The notes beneath the pieces are model-generated. The model had not been told where the DNA came from and made no database searches. It saw nothing but the letters and a program-made list of their open reading frames with translations. 64,000 bases of DNA from Akkermansiaceae bacterium (lineage in GTDB: Bacteria > Verrucomicrobiota > Verrucomicrobiia > Verrucomicrobiales > Akkermansiaceae): assembly GCA_013041925.1 (NCBI GenBank), contig JABDRB010000006.1, positions 1 to 64,000 of the forward strand, in the 5' to 3' direction. A program made the position numbers and the translations under genes. The first letter of the stretch is position 1. Every line of letters starts with the position of its first letter. Positions 11,420-41,850 of the stretch are shown piece after piece.

Positions 11420-12886
11420 CTATTTCTTTTTCCTGTGCCTTTTCTTCTCTTTTTCGACCACGACAGGGACATCATTTTCTTGAGCCGCGCCAAGAGTGCT
11501 CCGGCCGTTTCTGATTTGAGTGTCGAGGAGGTTTCGCAAGCGCTGGGTAATTTCAGGCATGATGCTGGCGAGGTTGTTTTGTTCGGCGATGTCGGTTTCC
11601 ATGTTGTAGAGTTGAACCGGAGTGTGAGCCTCTCCCCGCTTTGCGGTATCAGAAGCACGCGATTTCGACCACCCACCAGAGCCAGCACAAGCGATCATCT
11701 TCCATTTCCCCTGACGGATGGCAAAGTTACCATGGATGGAATGGTGGATAACGTCGGTCCGTGGCTTCGGGTTTTCACCGAGCAGCGCAGGGAGGAAACT
11801 CAGGCTATCCACGGCATCGCTTTCACCCAGTTTGTATCCAGTGATGTCAGCAACGGTGGCCATCAAGTCGGTCAAGCAGACAAGGTCGTCACACGAGCTA
11901 TTCGGTTTGATATACCCTGGCCAGGAAACGAGGAAGGGCACACGGTGGCCACCGTCCCAGATATCGGATTTCATCCCGCGAAGTTTACCGCTCGAAAAGT
12001 GGCCGGCTTCCCTGAGCTGTTGCACACCTGAGGAATGGGGTGAGGTTCCGTTGTCTGAACTGCAAATGATGAGTGTGTTGTTAATCAACCCGTGATCCTT
12101 GAGTGCTTTCACGACCTGACCGTAGCTGTCATCGGTTTGCATCACAAAATCCGCGTGTCCGTTGATGCCGCTTTTCCCCTTCCAATCCTTGGAGGGAACC
12201 ACAGGACTGTGTGGTGCATTCCATGGGATATACAAGAAAAACGGTTGAGCCTCCCGCTTGCGGCCTGCGATATACTCAACCGCTTGAGCCGTGAGTGCGG
12301 GAAGCATCTCGACAGGCTCAATATTCCGAGTGACTCTGTCGTTATCAATCCATAAATCCATCTGGCGAGCGTAGTGGAAACCGTGAAAAACATCGAAGCC
12401 GCCAAAATCGATCGGACCGTGGGTAACCACAGCACCCGGTTTTACGGCACCTCTGTGATGGTTCTCAATGCCATCAAATTTCATCCCCAAGTGCCATTTA
12501 CCGATCATGGCGGTATGGTAGCCCTTGGATTTAAGCATTTCGGCGATGGTTCGTGTTTCCTGAGCGATCAATGATTCCCCTCCCCTCATTACGCCGCTCT
12601 GCAAGCGTGTGCGCCAAGCGTAGCGGCCTGTCATCAGGCCATAACGGGTCGGAGTGCACACAGAGGACCCGCTGTGGGCATCGGTAAAAATCATGCCTGA
12701 CTTTGCCATGCTATCGAGTTGAGGCGTAAGAATTTTCCCCTGATCCGAGTTCAGGCACTGTAGTTCGCCAAAGCCCATATCGTCGGCCAGCATCACCACA
12801 ATATTTGGCCGAGTTTCCTTGGCGCGAAGGCAGGGAGTCACTAGAGAGATGGAGCAGAGGATCAGAAGAGGTATTGATTGTTTCAT
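11420..12886 (-). CDS. Secreted arylsulfatase (S1 family, CTPTR)
   Basis: 488-residue sulfatase with a signal peptide (1-22). It hydrolyses sulfate esters, presumably on polysaccharide. Metal-binding ADDMGFGE (34-41) and the formylglycine motif C77-T-P-T-R81 followed by GLMTGRY are intact, as is GKWHLG, which supplies active-site Lys and His, and SSDNGT near 278. The C-terminal end is a Lys/Arg-rich tail. The motif starts with Cys, so it needs conversion to formylglycine by a maturase not found in this window. First in order of a run of sulfatases on the minus strand; glycan substrate unknown. Confidence 0.93.
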   Translation of the reverse strand: MKQSIPLLILCSISLVTPCLRAKETRPNIVVMLADDMGFGELQCLNSDQGKILTPQLDSMAKSGMIFTDAHSGSSVCTPTRYGLMTGRYAWRTRLQSGVMRGGESLIAQETRTIAEMLKSKGYHTAMIGKWHLGMKFDGIENHHRGAVKPGAVVTHGPIDFGGFDVFHGFHYARQMDLWIDNDRVTRNIEPVEMLPALTAQAVEYIAGRKREAQPFFLYIPWNAPHSPVVPSKDWKGKSGINGHADFVMQTDDSYGQVVKALKDHGLINNTLIICSSDNGTSPHSSGVQQLREAGHFSSGKLRGMKSDIWDGGHRVPFLVSWPGYIKPNSSCDDLVCLTDLMATVADITGYKLGESDAVDSLSFLPALLGENPKPRTDVIHHSIHGNFAIRQGKWKMIACAGSGGWSKSRASDTAKRGEAHTPVQLYNMETDIAEQNNLASIMPEITQRLRNLLDTQIRNGRSTLGAAQENDVPVVVEKEKKRHRKKK

Positions 12887-12925
12887 TGGGAAATCTGGGT
12901 TGCGGACGGGTGGAATGCATCAGTG

Positions 12926-14443
12926 TTATTTCTTTCGGGTTTGCTTGGGTGCATCTAGCATTCGCTCCTTTTCCGACCAAGGCGTGTTGCGATCAAAGAG
13001 TGTGCCGTAGCGTTGATAATCGTTATAGGTAACCGCTTGTTTTTTCCATTCCTCCAGCTCGGCATCGTAGTTCTGGCGCATGCGTTTCAGCATGGTGTTG
13101 TATTCCGGATCTTTGACTCGGTTTTTTAGTTCCAGAGGATCATTCAACGTATCAAAAAGCTCCTCAACGGGCGTCATCCCGTCGCCACCATACCACCAAT
13201 AGGTGTATTTTAATCTTTGGGTGAGTGTCGTTAAGCAATGAGTTGCCTTCTCACCCCAGACGTTGATCAAAACCATCCGCTCGCGGACGTTTGCTGCTGG
13301 GTTTGAGAGAATCGGCAACAGGCTTTTGCCATCCATGTTTTCCGGCACCGCTAGACCTGCCAGCTCGAGTAGGGTCGGCGCAAAATCGATGTTCCCAGTC
13401 AGCGCCTGACTGCGCAGCCTCTTTCCGGATGTCTTGCTGCGCGGGTCAAAAATCATCAACGGAACACGCGAGGATTCTTCCAGTGGGAGGACCTTAGAAC
13501 CGTAGCCATGGGAGCCGCACAAAAAACCATTGTCGCTGCTATAAATGATGACGGTGTTACCAGCGAGCCCCTGCCTGTCAAGTTCATCACGGATCATACC
13601 GACCGAGACATCAATGGCAAAAATCTGCTGATGATACTTGGCCATTACGCCACCGTAGTCCGTGTCGTATTGCCACTCATTGAAGCGCTTGTACTGTCGG
13701 CCCTGCTTACTCTGTGCGGTAAGGTGACCAGCAAATTTTCTGCCGTAGTTGGCGGGCTTGGCAAATGTTCGCCCCATGTAAACGTGATCAAATTGAGGGT
13801 CGGGCGTAACTGGGCGGTGCGGTGCTTTAAAGCTAATCGACAGGCAGAAGGGTCTCCCGTCTTTTGCTGCTCGTTTGATCACGTCTTGGCCAAAGGCACC
13901 GTAGGCGCGGGTCGAGTGCGGGTAAGCTTCGGCGTAACGGACCATCGATTTATTTTTGATGGTCTGGTAATGCGTCTGGCCCGGTCCTCCACCCCACGCA
14001 TCAAAATCCTTTTCGCAAAGACCATGGCCCTCGACGACAAACCCAAACTTACCAGCAAAGGCGGTGAGATATCCGCTTTCGCGCAAGAGAACGGGGTAAG
14101 CCTTTTTCCAAATTCCGGCTTTCATATTGCCGTGGCTGAAATTAGTGCCTGTTTTATATTCATACATCCCAGTCATGATGCTGGCTCGACTGGCCATACA
14201 GATGGCAGTCGTGTTGTAGTGTTTATCGAAAATAATCCCGTCGCGCCCGAGGCGATCCATCTGTGGTGTCTTGACATCCTTATTGCCGTAACACCCCAAC
14301 GAATAGGTGCATTGGTCATCGGCGAGTAGAAATACAATATTTGGCCGCGTATCCGTATTAGGCCGCGTATCCGCCGGCAATGAGGCCGCAGTAATCCACA
14401 AAAATAAAAACCATATTAAGAGGTGCTCAGGCAGAACATTCAT
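12926..14443 (-). CDS. Secreted sulfatase (S1 family, CMASR)
   Basis: 505 residues from the ATG at 14443, which places a signal peptide at the N-terminus; an upstream TTG at 14464 is less likely. It has the metal site [14 protein letters not shown] and a formylglycine motif of the C-x-A-x-R type, C82-M-A-S-R, followed by [29 protein letters not shown] carries the second metal Asp-Asn pair. A 6-residue tandem duplication ([10 protein letters not shown]) follows the signal peptide and reflects an 18-bp repeat. The gap to the next sulfatase is 39 nt, so they may be cotranscribed. Confidence 0.92.
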
Positions 14444-14574
14444 AGATTTAGGATCATATTTCAAAAGGCGAACGTGACGAGTTTGCGTGTATGATACTCA
14501 GCTTGGAATGGCGCGTATCAAGCCTGGATGGCTAGCATGGGTAATTTCAAGAAACGACTAAACCGTTAAAGGGG

Positions 14575-16074
14575 TCATGCATCGTCGGGAACTTGATAAT
14601 AGGTTCGCAGTCGCTGCATTTCTTTTTTAAGTCGCCTAATCTCTCCCTCATATTCAGGGTTGAGGTATTCGCTTTTCATCTCGGAAGGATCCTTCTGAAG
14701 ATCGTAGAACTCCCACTCCTCTCCATCAATGACGTCCTTTCCGTAAAAGCGGATGAGCTTAAATCGTTTTTCTGAAACACCTTCGTGGCGTTTAACGCTG
14801 TGCCAAAATCCAGGGTATGCATAGTAGTGGTAGTAGATGGATTTCCGCCAGTCGGCAGGTGTCTTCCCCTTCATCAGAGGGACGATACTCTCGCCCTGCA
14901 TGTCCTCAGGGGGATCGACACCCGCTAAATCGAGAAAGGTTTCTGCGAAGTCGATATTCTGGACCATGTCGGTGTTGACTGAGCCAGGTTTGATCTTGCC
15001 TGGCCAGCGGACTAGCAAAGGAGTGCGGAACGATTCCTCATACATGAAACGTTTATCGAACCACCCGTGTTCTCCCATGTAAAACCCTTGGTCTGAGCAA
15101 TACATAACAATCGTGTCTTCCTCGAGTCCCGATTCTTTGAGGTAATCGAGTATTCTTCCGACACCTTCATCGACCGCCCAGATACAGCGCAAGTAATCTT
15201 TCAGGTAGAGTTGATACTTCCATCTTACCAGGTCCTTGCCCGTGGGTTTATGTTTTTGGTAGTAGGCGTTGCGTTTAGCGTATTGCAGGTTTTTGCTCCC
15301 CTTTTTATTGACCTTGAGGTCGCCGAGCAGGTGCATGGATTTCTCAATACTCATGTCCTGAGTGCGGGCTGGACTTCCGCGACCTTGGTAGTCGTCAAAA
15401 AGGTTCGGTGGTTCTGGTATTGTGATATCTTCATACTTGTTCATGTGGCGCTTTGCGGGTGCCCAATGACGGTGTGGTGCCTTATGATGGATCATCAGCA
15501 TAAAGGGTTTATCCTTATTGTGCTGACTCTTGAGCCAGGTGAGGGATTTATCCGTGATCACGTCGGTCACGTATCCGGTGTGTGCCGTGGTCCCTTTTTC
15601 AGAAATGAAGTCCGGATTGTTATACTTACCTTGACCGGGTAACACATCCCAGTAATCAAACCCCTGCATCTTTCCCTTGAGGTGAATTTTACCAATCATC
15701 GCGGTTTCGTATCCCTTTGTTTGCAGGATCTTAGCAAAGTTCATCTGATCTTGATCAAAGGTGTCATGGTTGGTACGTTTTCCATTGAGGTGGCTGTGTT
15801 TACCCGTCAACAAGACCGCCCGACTCGGTGCGCAGATCGAGTTCGTCACGTAGCAGCGATCGAAGCGCATCCCCTCGTTGGCAATGCGATCGATATGGGG
15901 GGTGGGATTCAGTTTCTGATACCTACCACCGTAAGCACCGATGGTTTGAAACGAGTGATCGTCTGAAAAGATCCATATAATATTAGGCTTACTACTGGCG
16001 GCGCTGACAAGTTGGCAACAGACAACAAGGGCGAGTAAGCCACGGACAGCAGAGGATGGCCGATTAATTTTCAT
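14575..16074 (-). CDS. Secreted sulfatase (S1 family, CAPSR)
   Basis: 499 residues from the ATG at 16074; this start gives a clean signal peptide (to about residue 26), whereas the longer reading frame from 16113 does not. Metal site FSDDHSFQTIGAYGG, formylglycine motif C81-A-P-S-R85 with AVLLTGKHSHLNG, and MYCSDQGFYMGEHGWFDKR. The sequence style, including GKIHLKG and KAPHRHWAPA, recalls sulfatases acting on N-acetylglucosamine-6-sulfate and related exo-acting groups, but the exact substrate is not established. Belongs to the same minus-strand sulfatase run. Confidence 0.92.
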   Translation of the reverse strand: MKINRPSSAVRGLLALVVCCQLVSAASSKPNIIWIFSDDHSFQTIGAYGGRYQKLNPTPHIDRIANEGMRFDRCYVTNSICAPSRAVLLTGKHSHLNGKRTNHDTFDQDQMNFAKILQTKGYETAMIGKIHLKGKMQGFDYWDVLPGQGKYNNPDFISEKGTTAHTGYVTDVITDKSLTWLKSQHNKDKPFMLMIHHKAPHRHWAPAKRHMNKYEDITIPEPPNLFDDYQGRGSPARTQDMSIEKSMHLLGDLKVNKKGSKNLQYAKRNAYYQKHKPTGKDLVRWKYQLYLKDYLRCIWAVDEGVGRILDYLKESGLEEDTIVMYCSDQGFYMGEHGWFDKRFMYEESFRTPLLVRWPGKIKPGSVNTDMVQNIDFAETFLDLAGVDPPEDMQGESIVPLMKGKTPADWRKSIYYHYYAYPGFWHSVKRHEGVSEKRFKLIRFYGKDVIDGEEWEFYDLQKDPSEMKSEYLNPEYEGEIRRLKKEMQRLRTYYQVPDDA

Positions 16075-16302
16075 AGACGAATAATGGGTTTGGATGAATG
16101 GCATGTAGTGCATAGGACTTCGGATAATGGGATCTAACTCAGCTTACTTCCCGACAACCGAGCGCATTTCAAGATGAGTGACTCAATTTAGTCGTAAACG
16201 ATAGCGATCATACTGTATGCCACCAGCCAGTCCAGCCTGATAGTATCGACCCCATCAGGCCGAACAAACAGTTTATCGGTCGAGCCCCATCACGGTCATT
16301 TT

Positions 16303-21919: not shown

Positions 21920-22573
21920 TTACCCCAACGTGCTGATCAAGTAAACCGTGCACTTCACCCCCTGACTCCCCTTCCGCTCGGATCGATCCACACGGGTACC
22001 CAAGGTCTGCTCAATCATCCTTGTCTCCATCACTACAAGCCCTGGATAAAGTTTAAATATCTGGTGCAGTGGATGATGGTATTCCTCGATCACGAAACCT
22101 TCCGCGGCCGAGTAATGGCAGTGACAAAAATGACCGGACTTGCCGCGTGCATCAGCAAATCGAGTCGCTTTCTCCACCAGCGACTTTCCCGGGCGCACTG
22201 CCTTGAGCCAATCATCACGCTCATTTTCAAAGTAATGATAGAGAAGCTTCTCCGGAGCCGTCTCCCCAAAGGCCACCTTCACCCCAGCCAGCAAATCCAA
22301 CACAAGCCCACTCCCACCGGTAGGGAAAAGCGGATCACACTTCCGTGTCAGTTGATAGAGCTTCTGCGGTCGACCCACCTGCACCCGAGGCACACGCCAC
22401 ACCTTGAGATACCCCATCTCCTCGAGCTTAACACAGTGCTGTTTCACACCCATGTAGCTCATTTCCAACAACTTCGCGAGTTCAGGAATCGCCAACCCTC
22501 CAGAGCGTTTCAACTCCCCAATGATCCCTAGGTAACTCGGCCGGGAAATATCGCAGAGGACTTGAGGAAACAT
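21920..22573 (-). CDS. HTH transcriptional regulator, SufR/ArsR-like
   Basis: 217 residues from the ATG at 22573. Winged helix-turn-helix domain at the N-terminus: RPSYLGIIGELKRSG, then the recognition region GLAIPELAKLLEMSYMGVKQ and the wing EEMGYLKVWRV. The C-terminal half contains HFCHCHYS, a CxCH cluster, and one more Cys near the C-terminus; similar regulators of the DeoR/SufR kind bind metal or Fe-S through C-terminal cysteines, but the SufR spacing is not reproduced. It is divergent from the aminomutase gene (97 nt between the start codons), so it likely regulates it. A longer start at 22633 adds a hydrophobic stretch and was not preferred. Confidence 0.75.
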   Translation of the reverse strand: MFPQVLCDISRPSYLGIIGELKRSGGLAIPELAKLLEMSYMGVKQHCVKLEEMGYLKVWRVPRVQVGRPQKLYQLTRKCDPLFPTGGSGLVLDLLAGVKVAFGETAPEKLLYHYFENERDDWLKAVRPGKSLVEKATRFADARGKSGHFCHCHYSAAEGFVIEEYHHPLHQIFKLYPGLVVMETRMIEQTLGTRVDRSERKGSQGVKCTVYLISTLG

Positions 22574-22670
22574 GACCCCAACTCTATGTAGGTAGAACGC
22601 AAACGCCAAACCCCAAATCACAAAAATCCTCATTTTGACAAATCACGATTTATCCTTAAACTCCACGAAG

Positions 22671-23810
22671 ATGTCCGACGTCACCTTTCAATCCCACACG
22701 CCAGGATACTGGCCCGCCGATGCCATGGAGCATTGGAACGATCACACTTGGCAGTTAAAAAATAGAATCACCTCGCTGGCCGCAATCGAAAAACACCTCG
22801 TGCTCACCGAGGAGGAGCGCGCCGGCATCCTGCTATCTGGAAAAAAATTGGCCATGGCCATCACGCCTCATTTTTTCAACCTCATCGACCGCAACGACCC
22901 ACATTGCCCGATCCGCCGACAGATGATTCCACGCATCGAAGAAACCCTCACGGATCCCGCCGAGATGAGCGACCCCTGCGGCGAGGACAGCCACATGCCC
23001 GTCCCAGGACTCGTGCACCGATACCCCGACCGCGTCCTCTTTCTCGTCACCGACCGCTGTGCCGCCTATTGCCGATACTGCACCCGCAGCCGCGTGGTCT
23101 CCGGCGTATCCGACCAAAAACTTGAAACCCAGTGGGAAGCCGCCTTTGAATACTTGGAAAACACCCCACAGGTCCGTGACGTCTTGATCTCAGGCGGTGA
23201 CGCCCTGCTCTTCTCTGATGCCCGACTCGAGAAAATCCTCTCCCGGCTCCACGCCATCCCACACATCCAGTTCATCCGCATCGGCTCGCGTATCCCCCTT
23301 TTCCTCCCCCAACGCATCACCGACGACCTCTGCGCGATGTTAAAAAAATACCACCCCCTCTTTATCTCCATTCACGCCAACCACCCACGTGAGTTGACCA
23401 ACGAGGTCCGGGACGCCCTCGGTCGACTCGCCGACGCAGGCATCCCCATGGGCAACCAAAGTGTCTTACTCAACGGCGTCAACGATAGCATCGACGTGCA
23501 AAAAGAACTCGTGCACAAACTCCTGATGTGCCGCGTCAGACCCTATTACCTCTATCAGTGCGACCTCATCCAAGGCTCTGCCCACCTCAGGACCAGCATC
23601 GACAAAGGAATCAGCATCATCGAGGGCCTCCGCGGCCACACCAGCGGCTACGCCATCCCCCAGTATGTCATCGACGGCCCCGGTGGCGGTGGCAAAATAC
23701 CCATCAACCCCGACTACGTCGTCCGCCACGACAACGGTGGCATCGTGCTCCGCAACTACGAAGGTAAACAGTTCGAATACCCCGCCCCAGATCCATTAAA
23801 AACACCGTAA
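22671..23810 (+). CDS. kamA: Lysine 2,3-aminomutase (radical SAM/PLP)
   Basis: Radical SAM enzyme converting L-lysine to beta-lysine, using a 4Fe-4S cluster, SAM and PLP. From the ATG at 22671 it has 379 residues. Cluster motif CAAYCRYC with C130, C134 and C137. Substrate carboxylate/amine-binding segments YQCDLIQGSAHLRT and VIDGPGGGGK, the latter holding the PLP-binding Lys, match clostridial KamA. DPCGEDSH upstream of the cluster is also typical. Beta-lysine is an osmolyte precursor, fermentation intermediate or NRPS building block; which applies here is open. Assignment as an EpmB paralogue is less likely given these motifs. Confidence 0.85.
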   Translation: MSDVTFQSHTPGYWPADAMEHWNDHTWQLKNRITSLAAIEKHLVLTEEERAGILLSGKKLAMAITPHFFNLIDRNDPHCPIRRQMIPRIEETLTDPAEMSDPCGEDSHMPVPGLVHRYPDRVLFLVTDRCAAYCRYCTRSRVVSGVSDQKLETQWEAAFEYLENTPQVRDVLISGGDALLFSDARLEKILSRLHAIPHIQFIRIGSRIPLFLPQRITDDLCAMLKKYHPLFISIHANHPRELTNEVRDALGRLADAGIPMGNQSVLLNGVNDSIDVQKELVHKLLMCRVRPYYLYQCDLIQGSAHLRTSIDKGISIIEGLRGHTSGYAIPQYVIDGPGGGGKIPINPDYVVRHDNGGIVLRNYEGKQFEYPAPDPLKTP

Positions 23811-24018: not shown

Positions 24019-24053
24019 AAAGACTTGCAGAGAAATCTGCAAGTCTTTCTTTT
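24019..24053 (+). terminator. Rho-independent terminator after tRNA-Arg
   Basis: Perfect 13-bp stem (24019-24031 with 24036-24048) closed by a GAAA tetraloop (24032-24035), followed by C and a T run. It lies 10 nt after the tRNA and just before the convergent NRPS stop at 24062. Confidence 0.9.
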
Positions 24054-24061
24054 TCGCCCCT

Positions 24062-27000
24062 TCAGTTTGCTGACCTTTTGTCATTTCCCATCCCCTGTGC
24101 TTGATCTAGCACGCCTCTCAAAGACTGAGTCAACACCGGTAGATGCTCTGGAAGCATGATTTCATTATGTCTGCCGGGAATTCGATGGATGTTGAATTTA
24201 CCGCGCGCAAAGTGTTTCCAGAATGATATTGCATGCGGATCCATACAATCTGAGGCAAAGAGGTCGACGCGGCCTGAATACTGATCCATCTGATAACTGG
24301 ATGCGACAGCATGATAGTAATCAATAAACCCGTCCACTTTTGGCGGCCGGTTATCTTGTTGTGGCCGATCTGTCACCACTACCGGCTGCGCACGGTTTTC
24401 AGCTAGCGCACGCAGAAACGCCTTCCCGCGTCCCAGTATATAATTACAGCGCTCTTGGTTGGGCATTTTCCACCAGCGCGTCAGATGGATCCCAATACGG
24501 CGGCAATAATGGGGGGCCTTGATCTGCAAGAATTTAGCCCAAGGAACCACGCCGATCGAGCTGCTGTCAAAGAGAGCAAGAACCGCAACTCGTTGGCCAA
24601 GGCTGTCAAGCTGTTGAGCCACTTCATAAGCGAGCCACCCCCCCATGGAATAACCACCTAAATAGTAAGGACCCTCAGGCTGAAATGATCGGATTTCTTC
24701 AACGTAATGAGCCGCCATCTCCTCAACGCTGATGTGGCGGTTCGAGTCCCCATCCAATCCAACGGCCTGAATTCCATATACCGGCTGATCAGGAGCCAAA
24801 CCCTTTGCCAGCTCGATAAACCCATAAACATTCCCACCCACACCATGAACTAGAAAAAGGGCCTCCTTTGAACCCTTCGGCTGCAATGGAACCAGAGAAC
24901 TCCATGACGGTGCCTCTTTGCCGTCAGCTTCATTCGCAACACCTTCAGCAATCGCCGCTATTGTCTTGGAACCATAGACGAGCGAAAGCGGCAAAGATCT
25001 TCCGACCGCAGCTTCCAGCTTTAATTGTAATCCCATAGCGGCCAAAGAATCACCGCCAAGTTCAAAAAAAGACTCTGATGGCTCTGCACTCGGTCGGGCA
25101 AGAAAATTACGTATGAATTGCAGCACGGATTCGGTATCTCTGGGGTCGATCGGTTCCGCGCGATCGGACTGCTGTGACGCAGAACTGAAACGGCTGGCAA
25201 GCTCCACGCGATTGACTTTGCCTGTTGCCGTTCTCGACCACTCAGTAACAAGCAGCCATCGTCGGGGAACCGCATAACGAGGAAGTTGCTTTTCAAGCTG
25301 ATTTTGGAGACCCATTGTCCAATCCTGATCCGAGATGCCCAAGTTGGCTCGACTGTTCTCATCGACACCCAGACAGCTCTCGGCCATACGTATCACAACA
25401 GCTCCCAGCTCTTTCGAGGCCTTTGTTTCAAAAGCCATTACTTCAGCATCTTTGACACCCGAAAGATTTCGAATAGCCCGGCATATTTCCTCCGGCTCCA
25501 CGCGATACCCATGGATCTTGAGCTGCTCATCAGCTCTACCGTGGAACAACAATTCACCGTTGTCCGTCCACGATCCCAGATCACCGCTGCGGTACCACCA
25601 GCCTTCATCATCAGTAAACTTCACAAATTGTGCCAATGTCTCCTCTGGATCATCCAAATAACCATCTGCCACCCCCAAGCCACCAATGACAATTTCGCCT
25701 ACTATACCCGGAGCGACCCTGCGGCCTTGCTCGTCAAGCACTCGAATCATCGCTCCCTTGTTAGGGGCGCCGATCGGAATCGACGGAAAGGAAAGTGACT
25801 CGCGCCCTATATCGTAATGTGTGCATATAACGGTAGCCTCAGTCGGGCCATATCCGTTGCAGAGCCGTATCGACTGAACGGCTAACGACTGCCACTGTTT
25901 AACTAATTCAGGAGAGAGCACCCCACCACCGACATCAACAGCGCGCAAAGAAGAGGGTATCGGATTCGCCACATGCTGGGCATCGCGCATCCATACAGAC
26001 CAAAGGGCCGTCGCCATGCCTAAGTAGGTAATATTGTAGAATGAAAGCGACTCCACTAAACCACGAACACTCCACACCGACTCAGGACGCGGGATCACAA
26101 CGCAACCTCCCGCAGCAAGGGGAGTCATTACTTCCGCCAATGTCGAGTCGAAGGCCACAGAAGAGGTCCAAAGCGATCTCTGAAACGACTCTCGCCCAAA
26201 GTATCTCGTCGAGTCTTCAATATAAGCATCAAGTCCACGATGGGTGATCTTGACACCTTTGGGTCGACCCGTACTGCCCGAAGTAAAAAATACACATGCA
26301 ATCCCTCCTACGAGAGACGCATCAGGCTCGCATGGCAATTCAAAATCAGGGTCATCATGATCACAACGGGGCTGAAGCCAGATCGTAGCACTCGTTTCCT
26401 TCAGAGCCTGACCAATGGCCACTCGTGCGCATGTCCGCTCCAAGACATCCAGAACCCGCAGATCGGGATCTTCCTCAGAAATGGGGACAAATGCGCACCC
26501 CAACCCCATAACAGCCAACTGAGCAGCAATCAACTCAGGAGACCGCCCAAGCCTTACGGGCACCATGTCGCCTTGCTCTACCCCAGCTTCCCCCAACCTC
26601 GCCATTAACCATGCGACTTCTCGTCCTAGATTGCCATAGGTCCAGATCTGTCCAACAGCGGTTTCGATAGCCTTAGAGCTTTGACGGCGTGTAAAATCGC
26701 TGAAGATTGATGCCAGAAATGATCTTGGCGCAGAATCAAAGCATCCCCCGTTCTCCCACTCACGGACTAAAAGCTCTGTAGCTGGTGCCAGCCGTGGAAG
26801 ATCAGATATCCTCGTAGCGGGTTGATCAATGATCAACTCACGAAGTCGTTTTGCAAGATTTCCAACGTGAGTCATGTCTGAGGCACCACGGGCCAACCAC
26901 CGTCCGTTCTCCCGCTGGATTTGCCATGAGGAGACGCCCACGGATACGGCCCCAACGTCTTCAGGAAACAGTTGGATTGGCCGTGATGCCGGGTCAGGCA

Positions 27001-28378
27001 TTGGAGCTTCTCCCCTTCCCCCACGCTCCAATAGATCAGCAAAGAACGGCCCACGCCGCTGTGCTCCCATCACCAACTCAAGCCACTTTTCTACGAACGC
27101 TAGTATCGACAGACCCTCATCAACCTCGACTACGATCGGGGCAACGCGATTGAGCAACGCTATCACAGCCGGATCACCGGCTGAGCCCACAACATCATTC
27201 AACTCCTTCTCAGTCCACCAACGACCCACCTCGATGTGCGCTTCACCCAAAGACAACGCCCAAGCGAGTAAACCACAGGCCAGATCATGGTCAGTCGTGC
27301 CAAGATCAACGGTCGAGCTTCCCCGTGATAACACAGCCGTGGATTTGGTGTCCTCAGGATCTTCAGAACATTTTTGTATCTGACGGCGCCAGCCCCATTC
27401 AAATCTGAAAACCCCCTCTTCCCATCTTGCAATTTGCGCAAGCTCATCAGGTTGCTTGAGCTCCGCATGCCTCGTCTGGCTCGAAGCCTCAGGAACTATG
27501 CTGGGCGCAAGGCTGGTAGCAACGAGGCAATCCTTTGATGTTGCGATGTGAACCCGAGCGTCTGATGCTATTGATATGGTTCCTGGTTGTGCGTTCTGGC
27601 TCGGGCATTGCTGATCACAGCATACCTCAGCGTTGATCAACCGATACCACTCCCTATCAAGGCGGAACCGCGCACAGCCCACATAGTTCGGGAAAGGTCC
27701 AAAATCAAGTGCCCGCACGACCCGCTGAATTCTATGGGCTGGCCATTGCCAATTGATCTCCATCCCCCCCCGTGGCCAATCTGAATTGCCAAAGTAGGTC
27801 CTTTCACTCAACTCTTGCTGCCGTAGAGGCATTGGCCCTCGGCCTAGCTTGAGAACGATCATGTCAAACCCTCGTGCTCCAGCCTCGAGGCAACGCAAGT
27901 TCAACGATTGACTTGTGTCATCATCATGAATGGGCACAGGTGTTTGAATGATGATCCCACCTGTATCAATTCCTTCTTCAACCATATGCCAAGTAACAGC
28001 ATACTCAGTTTCACCATCGAGCAGGGCTCGTGTTGGAGCATACAGACCCGCATACCTCGGCAGCGGTGCATCATGAAAATTGATGCTTCCCTTTACTGGA
28101 TGCCGAAGAATCTCAGCTGGTATCAGGCGAACATTATACGCACTTACTATCCAATCGCACGGTATCTTGGTGATAACGGCAAGGGGTGTTCCCGGATCAT
28201 AGGTCATGACCCCTTCGCGGCGCGCCGACGCGGCAAAGGACTTACCGTTCGCGAGACAAGCGACCACCTCATGTCCTGCCGTTCGTAATGAGCGAAGACA
28301 GTGCATTCCTATGGAAGCATCACCGATCAGGACAACGCGACACCTCTCATCTTCAGGCAAAATAGTATGGCTTCTCAT
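24062..28378 (-). CDS. One-module NRPS with formyltransferase and thioesterase
   Basis: 1438 residues. 1-180: formyl_trans_N domain with N100-F-H102 and D138 (GIDTG), the Asn/His/Asp catalytic set of formyl-THF transferases; 190-290: formyl_trans_C-like. 310-540: resembles only the C-terminal lobe of a condensation domain, ending RISDLPRLAP; no HHxxxDG. 550-1065: adenylation domain with A3 FFTSGSTGRPKG (697-708), A5 NGYGPTEAT (841-849), A7 YRSGDLG, K1054. 1080-1145: PCP, S1111 in GGDS. 1170-1425: thioesterase, S1244 in GYSMGG, D1271, H1404. By hand the A-domain pocket reads D-S-A-G-D-G-G-V-I-K, with D235-equivalent D744 favouring an alpha-amino acid; the substrate is unknown. Purine-rich leader, palindromic promoter. 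No PPTase gene in view. Confidence 0.88.
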   Translation of the reverse strand: MRSHTILPEDERCRVVLIGDASIGMHCLRSLRTAGHEVVACLANGKSFAASARREGVMTYDPGTPLAVITKIPCDWIVSAYNVRLIPAEILRHPVKGSINFHDAPLPRYAGLYAPTRALLDGETEYAVTWHMVEEGIDTGGIIIQTPVPIHDDDTSQSLNLRCLEAGARGFDMIVLKLGRGPMPLRQQELSERTYFGNSDWPRGGMEINWQWPAHRIQRVVRALDFGPFPNYVGCARFRLDREWYRLINAEVCCDQQCPSQNAQPGTISIASDARVHIATSKDCLVATSLAPSIVPEASSQTRHAELKQPDELAQIARWEEGVFRFEWGWRRQIQKCSEDPEDTKSTAVLSRGSSTVDLGTTDHDLACGLLAWALSLGEAHIEVGRWWTEKELNDVVGSAGDPAVIALLNRVAPIVVEVDEGLSILAFVEKWLELVMGAQRRGPFFADLLERGGRGEAPMPDPASRPIQLFPEDVGAVSVGVSSWQIQRENGRWLARGASDMTHVGNLAKRLRELIIDQPATRISDLPRLAPATELLVREWENGGCFDSAPRSFLASIFSDFTRRQSSKAIETAVGQIWTYGNLGREVAWLMARLGEAGVEQGDMVPVRLGRSPELIAAQLAVMGLGCAFVPISEEDPDLRVLDVLERTCARVAIGQALKETSATIWLQPRCDHDDPDFELPCEPDASLVGGIACVFFTSGSTGRPKGVKITHRGLDAYIEDSTRYFGRESFQRSLWTSSVAFDSTLAEVMTPLAAGGCVVIPRPESVWSVRGLVESLSFYNITYLGMATALWSVWMRDAQHVANPIPSSLRAVDVGGGVLSPELVKQWQSLAVQSIRLCNGYGPTEATVICTHYDIGRESLSFPSIPIGAPNKGAMIRVLDEQGRRVAPGIVGEIVIGGLGVADGYLDDPEETLAQFVKFTDDEGWWYRSGDLGSWTDNGELLFHGRADEQLKIHGYRVEPEEICRAIRNLSGVKDAEVMAFETKASKELGAVVIRMAESCLGVDENSRANLGISDQDWTMGLQNQLEKQLPRYAVPRRWLLVTEWSRTATGKVNRVELASRFSSASQQSDRAEPIDPRDTESVLQFIRNFLARPSAEPSESFFELGGDSLAAMGLQLKLEAAVGRSLPLSLVYGSKTIAAIAEGVANEADGKEAPSWSSLVPLQPKGSKEALFLVHGVGGNVYGFIELAKGLAPDQPVYGIQAVGLDGDSNRHISVEEMAAHYVEEIRSFQPEGPYYLGGYSMGGWLAYEVAQQLDSLGQRVAVLALFDSSSIGVVPWAKFLQIKAPHYCRRIGIHLTRWWKMPNQERCNYILGRGKAFLRALAENRAQPVVVTDRPQQDNRPPKVDGFIDYYHAVASSYQMDQYSGRVDLFASDCMDPHAISFWKHFARGKFNIHRIPGRHNEIMLPEHLPVLTQSLRGVLDQAQGMGNDKRSAN

Positions 28379-34357: not shown

Positions 34358-35758
34358 TTAGTGCTTGAGGAGAGTTTTGATCGCGCGACAGCGACGTCGC
34401 ATCTCGATGAGTTTCCTTTGATACTCTGGATTTTTGGCGAGGTTGCTCAGTTGATCGGGATCGGCTTTAAGGTCATGAAGAAACTCATAGCTGGGGTTCT
34501 GATCGAAGTAGTGGGCATAAACAAACCTCTCCCCCCTGACACCTTCCCACTTTGGGATCGATTCGTTTTCCATCAGGTGCTCACAGAAAAAATCCTTCCG
34601 CCAGTCGGACGGGTCCGCCCCATGGAGCAGTGGAACGTAACTGCTCCCCTGGTATTGTCGAGGTTGGCTGATCCCTGCGAGTTCGATGAGAGTGGGTGCC
34701 AAATCAATATTTAAGGTCGGCTGATTCACCACAGCCCCTCTTCTTTCCTTGGCCGCACGTGGGTCAAAAACAATGAGCGGCACTCTGAGTGACTGCTCGT
34801 AGTGCGACCACTTCCCCGCGAACCCACGGTCCCCCATGAAATACCCATTATCCGCCATATAAATGATAATGGTATTTGCGGCCAGCCCGGTCTCCTCCAG
34901 AGAATGACGGACACGACCGATCGCGTGGTCGACCCCGCTGATCATGCGGAAATAGGCCTTCATGTTTTTCTGATACTTTTCCGGTGTATCCCATCGCCAG
35001 TGAAAACGCTTTCGGGCCATCGATGACCCCTTAAAAAAATCAGGATGGTTCTCGTAAATGGATGCATCCCCCAGCCGAGGTGATGGGATTTCAATCTCTT
35101 CATACATTCCATCCACCGCCTTGGACCAGGGGAAATGATTTTTTAAATCTCCATCGTTGGCGTGGGATGCCTTAAAACTAACCGACAAACAAAATGGCTT
35201 CCCATCGGCACTGGCCTTCAAAAACGTGATTGCCTTGTCCGCCGCCACCTCAGACTCGTGCCTGAGGGTGCCGTCCTTTTGTTTCATCAAAAAGGGAAGT
35301 CGATCGTGAGGCTCAAACAAATCAAACATCTCAGACTCCGGCTCCCCCTCGGTCTTCACACCGTATTTACCAATGAAACCCGTGCGGTATCCTGCTTTAC
35401 GCAGCAGCATCGGGTAGCTCTTTTCCATATGGCCCTTTTTCAACGGCGGCTCACCAAAAGTAAAACCATGTGACGTCTCATGCAGACCCGTAAAGATGGA
35501 CGCCCGACTCGCTGCACAAATCGGCGTTGTCACAAAGGCATTTTCAAAGCGCACCCCCTCAGCGGCGAGTCGATCGATCACGGGAGTTTGAATGATCGGG
35601 TGCCCAGCACAACCGAGCGTGTCATTACGCTGGTCGTCGATCAGAAAAAATAAAATGTTTGGCTTCGTGACATCTGCGGCGCTCGCCACACTCGAAACAG
35701 GATTGAGCAAAACCAGAACACCTACCAGAAAGTATAACAGAGAACGTATCATCATCAT
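34358..35758 (-). CDS. Secreted sulfatase (S1 family, CAASR)
   Basis: 466 residues with a signal peptide (1-27). Metal-binding LIDDQRNDTLGCAGH, formylglycine motif C81-A-A-S-R85 followed by ASIFTGLHETSHGF. GKYGVKTEG takes the place of the GKWHLG lysine region. Further on, YMADNGYFMGDRGFAGKWS provides the second metal pair. The C-terminal LHDLKADPDQLSNLAKNPEY is typical. It lies 69 nt upstream of the Gfo/Idh/MocA gene on the same strand. Substrate unknown; overall close in style to the CMASR sulfatase at 12926. Maturase not in view. Confidence 0.92.
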   Translation of the reverse strand: MMMIRSLLYFLVGVLVLLNPVSSVASAADVTKPNILFFLIDDQRNDTLGCAGHPIIQTPVIDRLAAEGVRFENAFVTTPICAASRASIFTGLHETSHGFTFGEPPLKKGHMEKSYPMLLRKAGYRTGFIGKYGVKTEGEPESEMFDLFEPHDRLPFLMKQKDGTLRHESEVAADKAITFLKASADGKPFCLSVSFKASHANDGDLKNHFPWSKAVDGMYEEIEIPSPRLGDASIYENHPDFFKGSSMARKRFHWRWDTPEKYQKNMKAYFRMISGVDHAIGRVRHSLEETGLAANTIIIYMADNGYFMGDRGFAGKWSHYEQSLRVPLIVFDPRAAKERRGAVVNQPTLNIDLAPTLIELAGISQPRQYQGSSYVPLLHGADPSDWRKDFFCEHLMENESIPKWEGVRGERFVYAHYFDQNPSYEFLHDLKADPDQLSNLAKNPEYQRKLIEMRRRCRAIKTLLKH

Positions 35759-39261: not shown

Positions 39262-41850
39262 TTAGGGATTGGAAAATGGGTCATCCTCTGGCGGCTCTGG
39301 GATGGGGGCATTCATTGTTTTGGCAAGGGCGACTCGGAAACCATATAAGTTACTTGTATTGGACGATCTGACCGCATTCCGATTGGTCACATACAGATGT
39401 TCCTTCAAGTAACTACCCCAGCACCCGCCACGCAACACACCATACATCCCCTGCTCGGCATAATCGTCCGCAACCCACTCATAGGCATTACCCGCAAGAT
39501 CATATATACCCAATTCATTCGGCGGATAAGAACCCACAGGAGCTGTTTTTTCATAACCATCATTATAATTAATGAGCGTTCGGTTACGGCGAATATCCGT
39601 GGCTTGTGCCGCCGTTTGATCCGCTAAGTTACCGACCTTAAATCCGGCATCCTCTGGTGGCCAGACAAGCCCCCATGGAAATATTTTTTCCATCCTGAAT
39701 TCCCTCCGCGCCGGGGAACGATCAGGATCGTCTACGAGCCCTGCGATACGGCTCCACTCCAAATCCGTTAGGAGACGATAAGACACATCCTCGGAGATCC
39801 GTTCCTTTCTATGTTCTTGCTCCGTAAGCCACTTGCAGAAGGCTTCAGCATCATCACGGGAAACCTGCAACACCGGATGATCCGGACCTTGCGCAAACCC
39901 AGGATCCGCGGGAGATTGTGCCTTCGCTTCCTTGACATACGCGTTGTAGTCCGACACCCGCGTTTCCCATGCGGAGACCAACACCTCCTCGTTCACTGGT
40001 ACAAAGCGCATCCCGAGGCTATTCTCCCATTTTTTACCAAAAACCACACTATTGTCTCGCTGGAGATTGATACTCACTTTTTCTCTGGCGAGATCTTTGA
40101 CATTCAACGCGCGGGTATTGCGCCGGTAGCCTTCCAAAGTCAGACTGAGTTCGATCGACCCTGGTTTGACACGCCCTAGGTAGAGGGGTGTTGTCCCCCG
40201 ATATTCACCATCGATCTGTACCATTGCTCCCTCGGGAGAACTCTGAATCTCGAGATTAGCAAAGGGGATATTTTTCACCAGACTCTGAAAAGGCAACAAC
40301 TTCTTTTTTCTCACCGTAGAGGTCATCCTCGGAGATTTAAAACCTACGGCAAACAGAGGGGCAATATGCTGCACCTCGTTCAAATACCCCTCGGATAGCG
40401 CAACTTGGGTCTGCCACTCACAGTAAGCATCCGCCTGCTCGGGAGTTGCACAAACGATCAAACGTTTTACCCCACTCTCACTGTGCTCAATAAATTCTGC
40501 AGGCACCTTTTCACCTAAAGACCTCTCATAGCGTTTCCATTGATACTTCCTCACATATCCCGCACTGACATGATACTCATCCACTGGTTGATAGTGGACA
40601 CCAAAATTATCCACCCATTCCTGCCCAGCGACAGGTGGGGCATAAATCGCCATAATCTGCTCCACCATTTCCGTTTCGTTGGCCTTAACGATGCCCTCCT
40701 TGCGTTCCGTCCGGTAGCCTTCGAGGCGGAATTCAAATTCATAGTGTGACCCCGCCGCCATCCGGATGTTTTTCATCGGTGTGATATCTAGAAAATGACC
40801 TTTCCGGTCATAGACCTCAGCGCCTTCTGGGTCACTGAGCACTTTGACAAATCCATACTGAGTCCGAACGATCGGCGGCTTGATATTGCCCGGGCCAGCC
40901 ACTGCCACCTGAGGCCAGGGGATAAATTCGCGAAACCCCCAAACCAACAAACATAACAAGCCTGTCAGTAGGATCAGCGCGTTCACCAGACTACGCCGCC
41001 GACGCTTCACCCGCTTGCCACTCTGTAGCTGCCTCAAGCCATCAGCTAATATCTCTGCCGTGGTAATGGTCCGCCTCGACACGCGCGGTTCACAAATATC
41101 ACAAATGACGTGATTGAGCCTGAGCCAGCGTTTTTTTTGCGTCTCATCAGGAAGTTCATCCGGGAGTTCGGGAAACTCCATACGGTCTTTGCCTGTCGCC
41201 ATCTCATAGAGCACCTTGCCTAGGCCATAAACATCCGCCTGAGCCGAGCCAGGGCCTTCCGGCGGCACAAACCCCTCGGTTCCAACAAAGGTCCTCTGCC
41301 CACGGGCCGCGACCAGCCCGATATCAGCCAACTCCGCCTTACCATCGACAAAAATAATGTTGGCAGGTTTAATATCGCGGTGCGCAAGCCCCTTCCCGTG
41401 AAGATGCGCAAGGGCCTCGGCAAGACGAAGCCCCACATCGATAACGATATCAGTATCGATCGGCTTACCATCGGCCTTTTTTAAATCTGTTCGTAAATTG
41501 CGCGGTTCATACTCCACGGGATTGATGTCGTCGCCCGAGTTGATGTCGTCGCCAAGCTCCATGACGTAATAATAGAACTCGCCCTCATCCTTATCCTTAC
41601 TGCGACCGACGTGAAGAATATTCACCAAGCCCGGATGATCTCGCGAAATGGGCTCATACTTGAGAATCCCCTCGAACTCGCGCTCGAATCCACGCTCGTC
41701 CTCAAAGTCTTCACGACGCACCAATTTCACGGCACGCATCGCGCCCGTGACAGCGCGCGCCAACCACACTTCCCCATACGAGCCACCACCAATTTTGCGC
41801 AGCACCTCATGATCCGGAATCACCGGCTCTGGTCGCGTCCTACCCCGCAT
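39262..41850 (-). CDS. Ser/Thr kinase with PEGA and FGE-fold domains
   Basis: 862 residues. Kinase domain (12-275): glycine loop IGGGSYGEV, K42, catalytic HRDIKPAN (D159), D176-I-G in place of DFG. Transmembrane helix about 288-308. Outside: PEGA 1 (332-400, LSDPEGAEV), a degenerate FGE-like segment (about 415-500, FGVHYQPVDEYHVSAGYV), PEGA 2 (532-596, SSPEGAMV), and a C-terminal FGE-sulfatase/C-type-lectin-like domain (605-843). The C-terminal domain lacks the CxxxxC pair of true formylglycine enzymes (GGCWGSYLKE), so it is not a sulfatase maturase and probably senses a ligand. Its start overlaps the sigma factor's stop by 11 nt. Confidence 0.9.
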   Translation of the reverse strand: MRGRTRPEPVIPDHEVLRKIGGGSYGEVWLARAVTGAMRAVKLVRREDFEDERGFEREFEGILKYEPISRDHPGLVNILHVGRSKDKDEGEFYYYVMELGDDINSGDDINPVEYEPRNLRTDLKKADGKPIDTDIVIDVGLRLAEALAHLHGKGLAHRDIKPANIIFVDGKAELADIGLVAARGQRTFVGTEGFVPPEGPGSAQADVYGLGKVLYEMATGKDRMEFPELPDELPDETQKKRWLRLNHVICDICEPRVSRRTITTAEILADGLRQLQSGKRVKRRRRSLVNALILLTGLLCLLVWGFREFIPWPQVAVAGPGNIKPPIVRTQYGFVKVLSDPEGAEVYDRKGHFLDITPMKNIRMAAGSHYEFEFRLEGYRTERKEGIVKANETEMVEQIMAIYAPPVAGQEWVDNFGVHYQPVDEYHVSAGYVRKYQWKRYERSLGEKVPAEFIEHSESGVKRLIVCATPEQADAYCEWQTQVALSEGYLNEVQHIAPLFAVGFKSPRMTSTVRKKKLLPFQSLVKNIPFANLEIQSSPEGAMVQIDGEYRGTTPLYLGRVKPGSIELSLTLEGYRRNTRALNVKDLAREKVSINLQRDNSVVFGKKWENSLGMRFVPVNEEVLVSAWETRVSDYNAYVKEAKAQSPADPGFAQGPDHPVLQVSRDDAEAFCKWLTEQEHRKERISEDVSYRLLTDLEWSRIAGLVDDPDRSPARREFRMEKIFPWGLVWPPEDAGFKVGNLADQTAAQATDIRRNRTLINYNDGYEKTAPVGSYPPNELGIYDLAGNAYEWVADDYAEQGMYGVLRGGCWGSYLKEHLYVTNRNAVRSSNTSNLYGFRVALAKTMNAPIPEPPEDDPFSNP

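Follow-up and report, generated by a model that had tools for sequence, protein, structure and literature searches.

In linear gramicidin synthase, according to the work cited in PMC4504003, a formyltransferase (F) domain formylates amino acids bound to the peptidyl carrier protein (PCP). Further F domains belong to N-formylglycine starter cassettes, whose reported gene orders are ozmO-ozmP-ozmQ, congA-congE-congB and ptxE-ptxD-ptxC (1154, 362 and 877 residues). The first gene of these oxazole starter cassettes is described as F, adenylation (A) domain and PCP, and is proposed to form N-formylglycyl-S-PCP. A 2022 review calls F domains very scarce and always located in initiation modules (PMC8949500). 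Here we analyse a nonribosomal peptide synthetase (NRPS) gene at 24062..28378, on the minus strand, in the first 64,000 nucleotides of contig JABDRB010000006.1 of an Akkermansiaceae bacterium (GCA_013041925.1); this whole stretch is called the window. The gene encodes, from an ATG start, a single module of 1438 residues (the window NRPS), in which F is followed by a condensation domain that lacks its N-lobe and consists of the C-terminal lobe only (ΔC), then by A, PCP and a thioesterase (TE).

Domain order and the condensation C-lobe

The 4.3 kb frame was uninterrupted by stop codons and had a plausible ribosome site ahead of the ATG. Domains were called with Pfam and NCBIfam profiles, and all lie on the minus strand. 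The catalytic (Rossmann) domain of F, with the fold of ArnA and Fmt, covers residues ≈ 13-190 (27809..28342; PF00551, Formyl_trans_N, at 69-170, E = 2e-20). The C-terminal domain of F covers residues ≈ 200-306 (27461..27781; PF02911, Formyl_trans_C, at 207-290, E = 6e-6), the fold match reaching residue 306. The A domain extends over residues ≈ 564-1066 (25181..26689) and contains motifs A3-A10 with the A10 lysine; it matched PF00501 (AMP-binding) at 574-908 (E = 5e-57) and TIGR01733 at 580-980, the latter above cut-off. The PCP (24938..25132; PF00550, PP-binding, at 1085-1145, E = 3e-10) carries Ser1111 within LGGDSL. It is followed by a type I thioesterase (24131..24877; PF00975, Thioesterase, at 1174-1413, E = 3e-27) with Ser1244 in GYSMGG, Asp1271 and His1404, that is, the GxSxG motif with Asp and His that marks type I NRPS thioesterases. 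Every catalytic motif checked was thus present, from A3-A10 and the carrier serine to the TE triad and the Asn, His and Asp of F. The domain profiles detected no luciferase-like monooxygenase (LLM) insert in the A domain.

The catalytic residues of F were at exactly the positions named in a preliminary description of this DNA, N100, H102 and D138, and were invariant across a 46-member alignment of relatives. A structure model of residues 1-571 reached a predicted local distance difference test score (pLDDT) of 83.1 and a predicted template modelling score (pTM) of 0.82. In this model, residues 13-306 resembled ArnA, Fmt and the hydrolase domain of 10-formyltetrahydrofolate dehydrogenase over 272-286 residues (Z ≈ 25-26). 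By sequence, too, WbkC, ArnA and Fmt were closer to this F than the F of LgrA was, with E-values of about 1e-16 for Fmt and ArnA against about 1e-5 for LgrA.

Residues ≈ 307-545 (26744..27460) are a true condensation C-lobe, cut at the natural lobe boundary. The Pfam Condensation profile did not match the window NRPS at E < 1, nor did it match residues 290-571 searched alone. We therefore turned to an alignment (A2) of the F-to-A segments of the window NRPS and 54 relatives (n = 55). Its profile, searched against the PDB, matched condensation domains of known structure in their C-terminal portion (EntF 193-469, RzmA 184-434, TomBC, PvdL and TycC). Individually, 22 of the 55 segments reached PF00668, and those of two relatives, L078 and L092, did so above the curated cut-off, at profile positions 191-456. 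The window segment was also modelled (mean pLDDT 78.5, pTM 0.73); the top fold matches were all of condensation type, with VIA Z 12.9-13.0 to RzmA and EntF over ≈ 204 residues aligned to their positions 175-434. Profile, Pfam matches in relatives and model agree that the lobe is real, and the profile and model matches start at the border between N- and C-lobe, a natural boundary.

The HHxxxDG motif sits in the condensation N-lobe. It was found neither in the whole window NRPS nor between F and A in any family member fetched (see below); the complete condensation domains of dimodular relatives do carry it. Residues 300-545 were thus not found to conceal a complete condensation domain: Pfam gave no match, the motif was missing, and profile and model showed a C-lobe only. 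The same profile search and model contradict an unrelated fold. Domain searches and structure prediction thus bore out what the preliminary description had seen, namely an order of F, C-lobe, A, PCP and TE in one 1438-residue protein, with only a C-lobe and no HHxxxDG between F and A.

Relatives and named systems

To place the window NRPS, an alignment (A1) of its F-ΔC part with that of its nearest relatives in the phylum was scanned against the GTDB species genomes. The scan returned 474 relatives, and 80 were fetched. In all 77 fetched proteins in which A could be placed, it began 496-590 residues after F. Our home-made domain profiles do not score ΔC; its presence in each protein was taken from this spacing together with alignment A2. 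Among the proteins long enough to read, 59 had the order F-ΔC-A(LLM)-PCP and six F-ΔC-A-PCP. Three had F-ΔC-A-PCP-TE: the window NRPS, L078 from a metagenome-assembled genome (MAG) of Pyrinomonadaceae, an acidobacterium, and L110 from a Gemmatimonadales MAG, a gemmatimonadote. Four complete and several partial proteins, all from the phylum of the window genome, had A-PCP-C-F-ΔC-A-PCP-TE, where C is a condensation domain.

The window NRPS therefore belongs, as a divergent member, to a large formylating family that is mostly unstudied; it is real and ordinary in kind. The preliminary description had called the architecture unusual and its C-lobe a relic; with the same order in L078 and L110 and F-ΔC-A as the fixed core of a large family (474 relatives in the scan), neither the order nor the half-domain is peculiar to this protein. 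The number of relatives contrasts with the scarcity of F domains stated in the 2022 review (PMC8949500). The half-domain is absent from the published module descriptions that we examined, and the exchange of an N-lobe for a formyltransferase has apparently been little noticed. Literature searches, with subscription journals mostly outside their reach, found no paper on F-ΔC-A(LLM)-PCP proteins or Atu3671, nor on any formyltransferase paired with a truncated condensation domain.

The 59 complete F-ΔC-A(LLM)-PCP loci (among L051-L130) came from Rhodobacterales, Planctomycetota, Myxococcota, Chloroflexota and others, and had a near-constant, glycine-like pocket, D-I-L..x-G-M-I/V-W. Proteins of this MupA/Atu3671 type (TIGR04020) share with the window NRPS the same F, the same C-lobe and the same spacing; they differ by the monooxygenase inserted in A and by their pocket (D-I-L..G-M-I-W), whereas the window NRPS has a TE and no insert. 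L078 and L110 have the identical domain order but low identity to the window NRPS and different neighbourhoods. The L078 gene (813-8937) adjoins genes for NeuB, UDP-GlcNAc 2-epimerase, a cytidylyltransferase, a methyltransferase, Wzz/Poly_export and ABC-2 proteins; this neighbourhood is a nonulosonic acid/surface polysaccharide cluster.

The dimodular synthetases, some of them partial, were found in other families of the same phylum (L027:6493-13533, L030:612-7871, L031:6151-13191, L037:3588-9446 and L028:1-6225). Their F stands in the second, terminal module, in contrast to the exclusive placement in initiation modules stated by the 2022 review. They have a pocket of E239 type (D-G/L/I-E...), and these enzymes may formylate the side chain of a basic residue. 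A derivation of the window NRPS from such proteins by loss of A-PCP-C was neither shown nor excluded by the tree, which gave it no firm place because of its long branch.

Comparison with LgrA, suggested by the preliminary description, held in one respect: both proteins have F ahead of A. The rest of the likeness fell away. In LgrA, a short F, more distant than Fmt and ArnA, runs straight into A (matches at 45-128 for F, A from ≈ 225), and the module has neither C-lobe nor TE; in the window NRPS ≈ 240 residues of C-lobe lie between the two domains. OzmO (oxazolomycin), CongA (conglobatin) and PtxE (phthoxazolin), compared by published description, resemble the window NRPS in that one protein combines F, A and PCP and handles a single amino acid; unlike it, they lack a TE, feed a polyketide synthase (PKS) and are predicted to be glycine-specific. 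The window NRPS has instead the pocket D-S-A..D-G-G-V-I, no OzmP-like cyclodehydratase or ketosynthase-acyl carrier protein (KS-ACP) neighbours, and no modular KS in its genome. A closer match to these cassettes is L111 from Streptomyces blattellae, in which F-ΔC-A-PCP with a glycine-like pocket is followed by a 382-residue SGGKDS protein and an 881-residue KS-ACP. This is the gene order of the oxazolomycin, conglobatin and phthoxazolin starter cassettes, with protein sizes near theirs. By analogy with L111, and judging from the published descriptions, we infer that the OzmO, CongA and PtxE modules may also carry a C-lobe; at its reported 1154 residues PtxE has room for one, though it is described only as F-A-PCP.

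Proposed function and alternatives

We consider it probable that the window NRPS is a stand-alone enzyme of the F-ΔC-A-PCP family, equipped with a TE, which loads one amino acid, formylates it on the carrier and releases it, and whose ΔC is non-catalytic. The A domain would activate one amino acid with ATP and load the PCP, whose arm would bring the loaded residue to F. By homology to the linear gramicidin system, F would then move a formyl group from 10-formyltetrahydrofolate onto an amino group of the residue held by the carrier, probably the one at the alpha position. Finally, TE would free the N-formyl amino acid or hand the loaded residue to another nucleophile. The C-lobe would perform no chemistry: F presumably replaced the histidine-bearing N-lobe, and the remaining lobe may keep the C-A platform under F. 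Such a fixed, docked arrangement would agree with the high pTM of the F-ΔC model.

Release after a single load, as the preliminary description had proposed, is the simplest reading because no partner condensation domain was detected in the genome, which is 98% complete: PF00668 was not matched anywhere in it. PF00109 gave three ketosynthase matches, all in frames of 423-444 residues, so that no modular PKS was detected. For the product, which that description gave as a formylated amino acid or its ester or amide, we infer that an N-formyl amino acid, or something derived from one, is the most likely.

Several points weigh against this function. The A-domain pocket, read by motif as D-S-A-(L)-D-G-G-V-I-K in what we take to be the reference numbering (position 278 by eye), matches no substrate code known to us, and the code allowed no confident substrate assignment. 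The best identity to any homologue was 29% over F-ΔC, the end branch measured 2.64 changes per site and the tree place was not firm; with no close homologue, function is transferred over a long range. It is not certain that the PCP is activated, since the sole phosphopantetheinyl transferase match in the genome was a 158-residue frame of AcpS size. Finally, no earlier example of a TE that releases a simple formyl amino acid came to light in this analysis, and the product could be a conjugate.

Such a conjugate would arise if TE transferred or coupled the loaded residue (as an ester, an amide, a sugar acylation or a dimer) rather than hydrolysing it, giving for example a formyl-aminoacylated amino sugar. 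The polysaccharide setting of L078, with its NeuB, epimerase, cytidylyltransferase and export genes beside a protein of the same architecture, speaks for this; the window neighbourhood is catabolic, not glycan-building, and the neighbours of L110 give no such hint. We regard coupling as unlikely here. A role as a starter module that passes its formyl-aminoacyl group on in trans, as in oxazolomycin, conglobatin and gramicidin, with TE editing or vestigial, seems to us improbable to a like degree. Most family members without TE are indeed starter-like F-ΔC-A-PCP proteins, with or without the monooxygenase insert, and L111 holds an oxazole-starter-type cassette. Against this stand the complete TE triad, the absence of biosynthetic neighbours at the window locus, and a genome with no detected condensation domain and only the three small ketosynthase frames. 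The gene might also be a foreign one on its way out, free of selection and without a product. Its absence from 13 congeners, its long branch, the loss of several near-invariant residues (W51, W117 and R201 among them) and a GC content at third codon positions (GC3) of 0.50 versus 0.57-0.73 in neighbour genes fit decay; a 4.3 kb frame without a stop and with all tested catalytic motifs intact makes it very unlikely.

Returning to the stand-alone formylating enzyme, a broader scenario can be offered, tentatively and at somewhat less than an even chance. In it, the donor lobe of a condensation domain would once have given way to an Fmt-like F, with the acceptor lobe staying as a dock on A, and most formylation modules that are not of gramicidin type would descend from this event; the window NRPS would be the stand-alone TE member, an enzyme dedicated to making N-formyl amino acids in a genome that has no condensation domain. 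The general interest lies in the many phyla in which a formyltransferase stands where the condensation N-lobe would be, and in the testable suggestion that this gives of how condensation domains can be converted into docks for other enzymes. The window NRPS is convenient for testing it because it is among the smaller self-contained versions that would load, formylate and release.

Origin and neighbourhood of the gene

A look at 13 further congeneric genomes did not find the NRPS, and in the phylum sample the window genome was the only one of its family with it. Exact peptide patterns retrieved no close relatives from GTDB. This absence from congeners and the family sample, together with the lower GC3, points to acquisition by transfer; loss elsewhere is also possible.

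The preliminary description had inferred a small secreted or signalling metabolite; the locus showed no export or regulatory gene visibly tied to the NRPS. Converging on it is a lysine 2,3-aminomutase-like (kamA-like) gene (22635-23810), which forms a divergent pair with a helix-turn-helix regulator gene (21920-23810 for both). The pair is kept in several congeners at 75-86% identity: the kamA-like gene in those examined, its regulator in three of five. Between the converging genes, a consensus scan placed a 13-pair hairpin with a T tail (24019..24048, plus strand), a possible shared terminator; such sites were no commoner in the region than in shuffles. We rejected the aminomutase as a supplier of beta-lysine to the NRPS because 54 of the 60 family genomes carry it, at 65-86% identity in nearly every case (the five genomes sampled from one genus, g2, all lack it), while the NRPS was not found in the other sampled members of the family and genus. 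RhaT, upstream, was rejected as an operon partner, as it lies 255 bases off in a divergent rhamnose block; RhaT and the rhamnose genes were not beside the kamA-like gene and regulator in the congener pieces fetched.

The neighbourhood of the NRPS in the window is catabolic (rhamnose, sulfatases, glycoside hydrolase family GH2), with no biosynthetic neighbours. Four sulfatases (11420-16113 and 34358-35758) lie near genes for GH2, DUF6807, rhamnose isomerase and kinase, and GFO/IDH proteins, and this region around the NRPS perhaps serves the use of a sulfated, rhamnose-containing polysaccharide. At 39262-41850 lies a gene for an 862-residue protein in which a Ser/Thr protein kinase domain is fused to PEGA and FGE-sulfatase (formylglycine-generating-type) domains. 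Elsewhere in the genome, on a 7.4 kb contig (C33; L036:2772-6566), an 869-residue ligase-carrier-thioesterase-like protein is encoded directly after an amidohydrolase-like gene, the second small enzyme of this kind in the genome.

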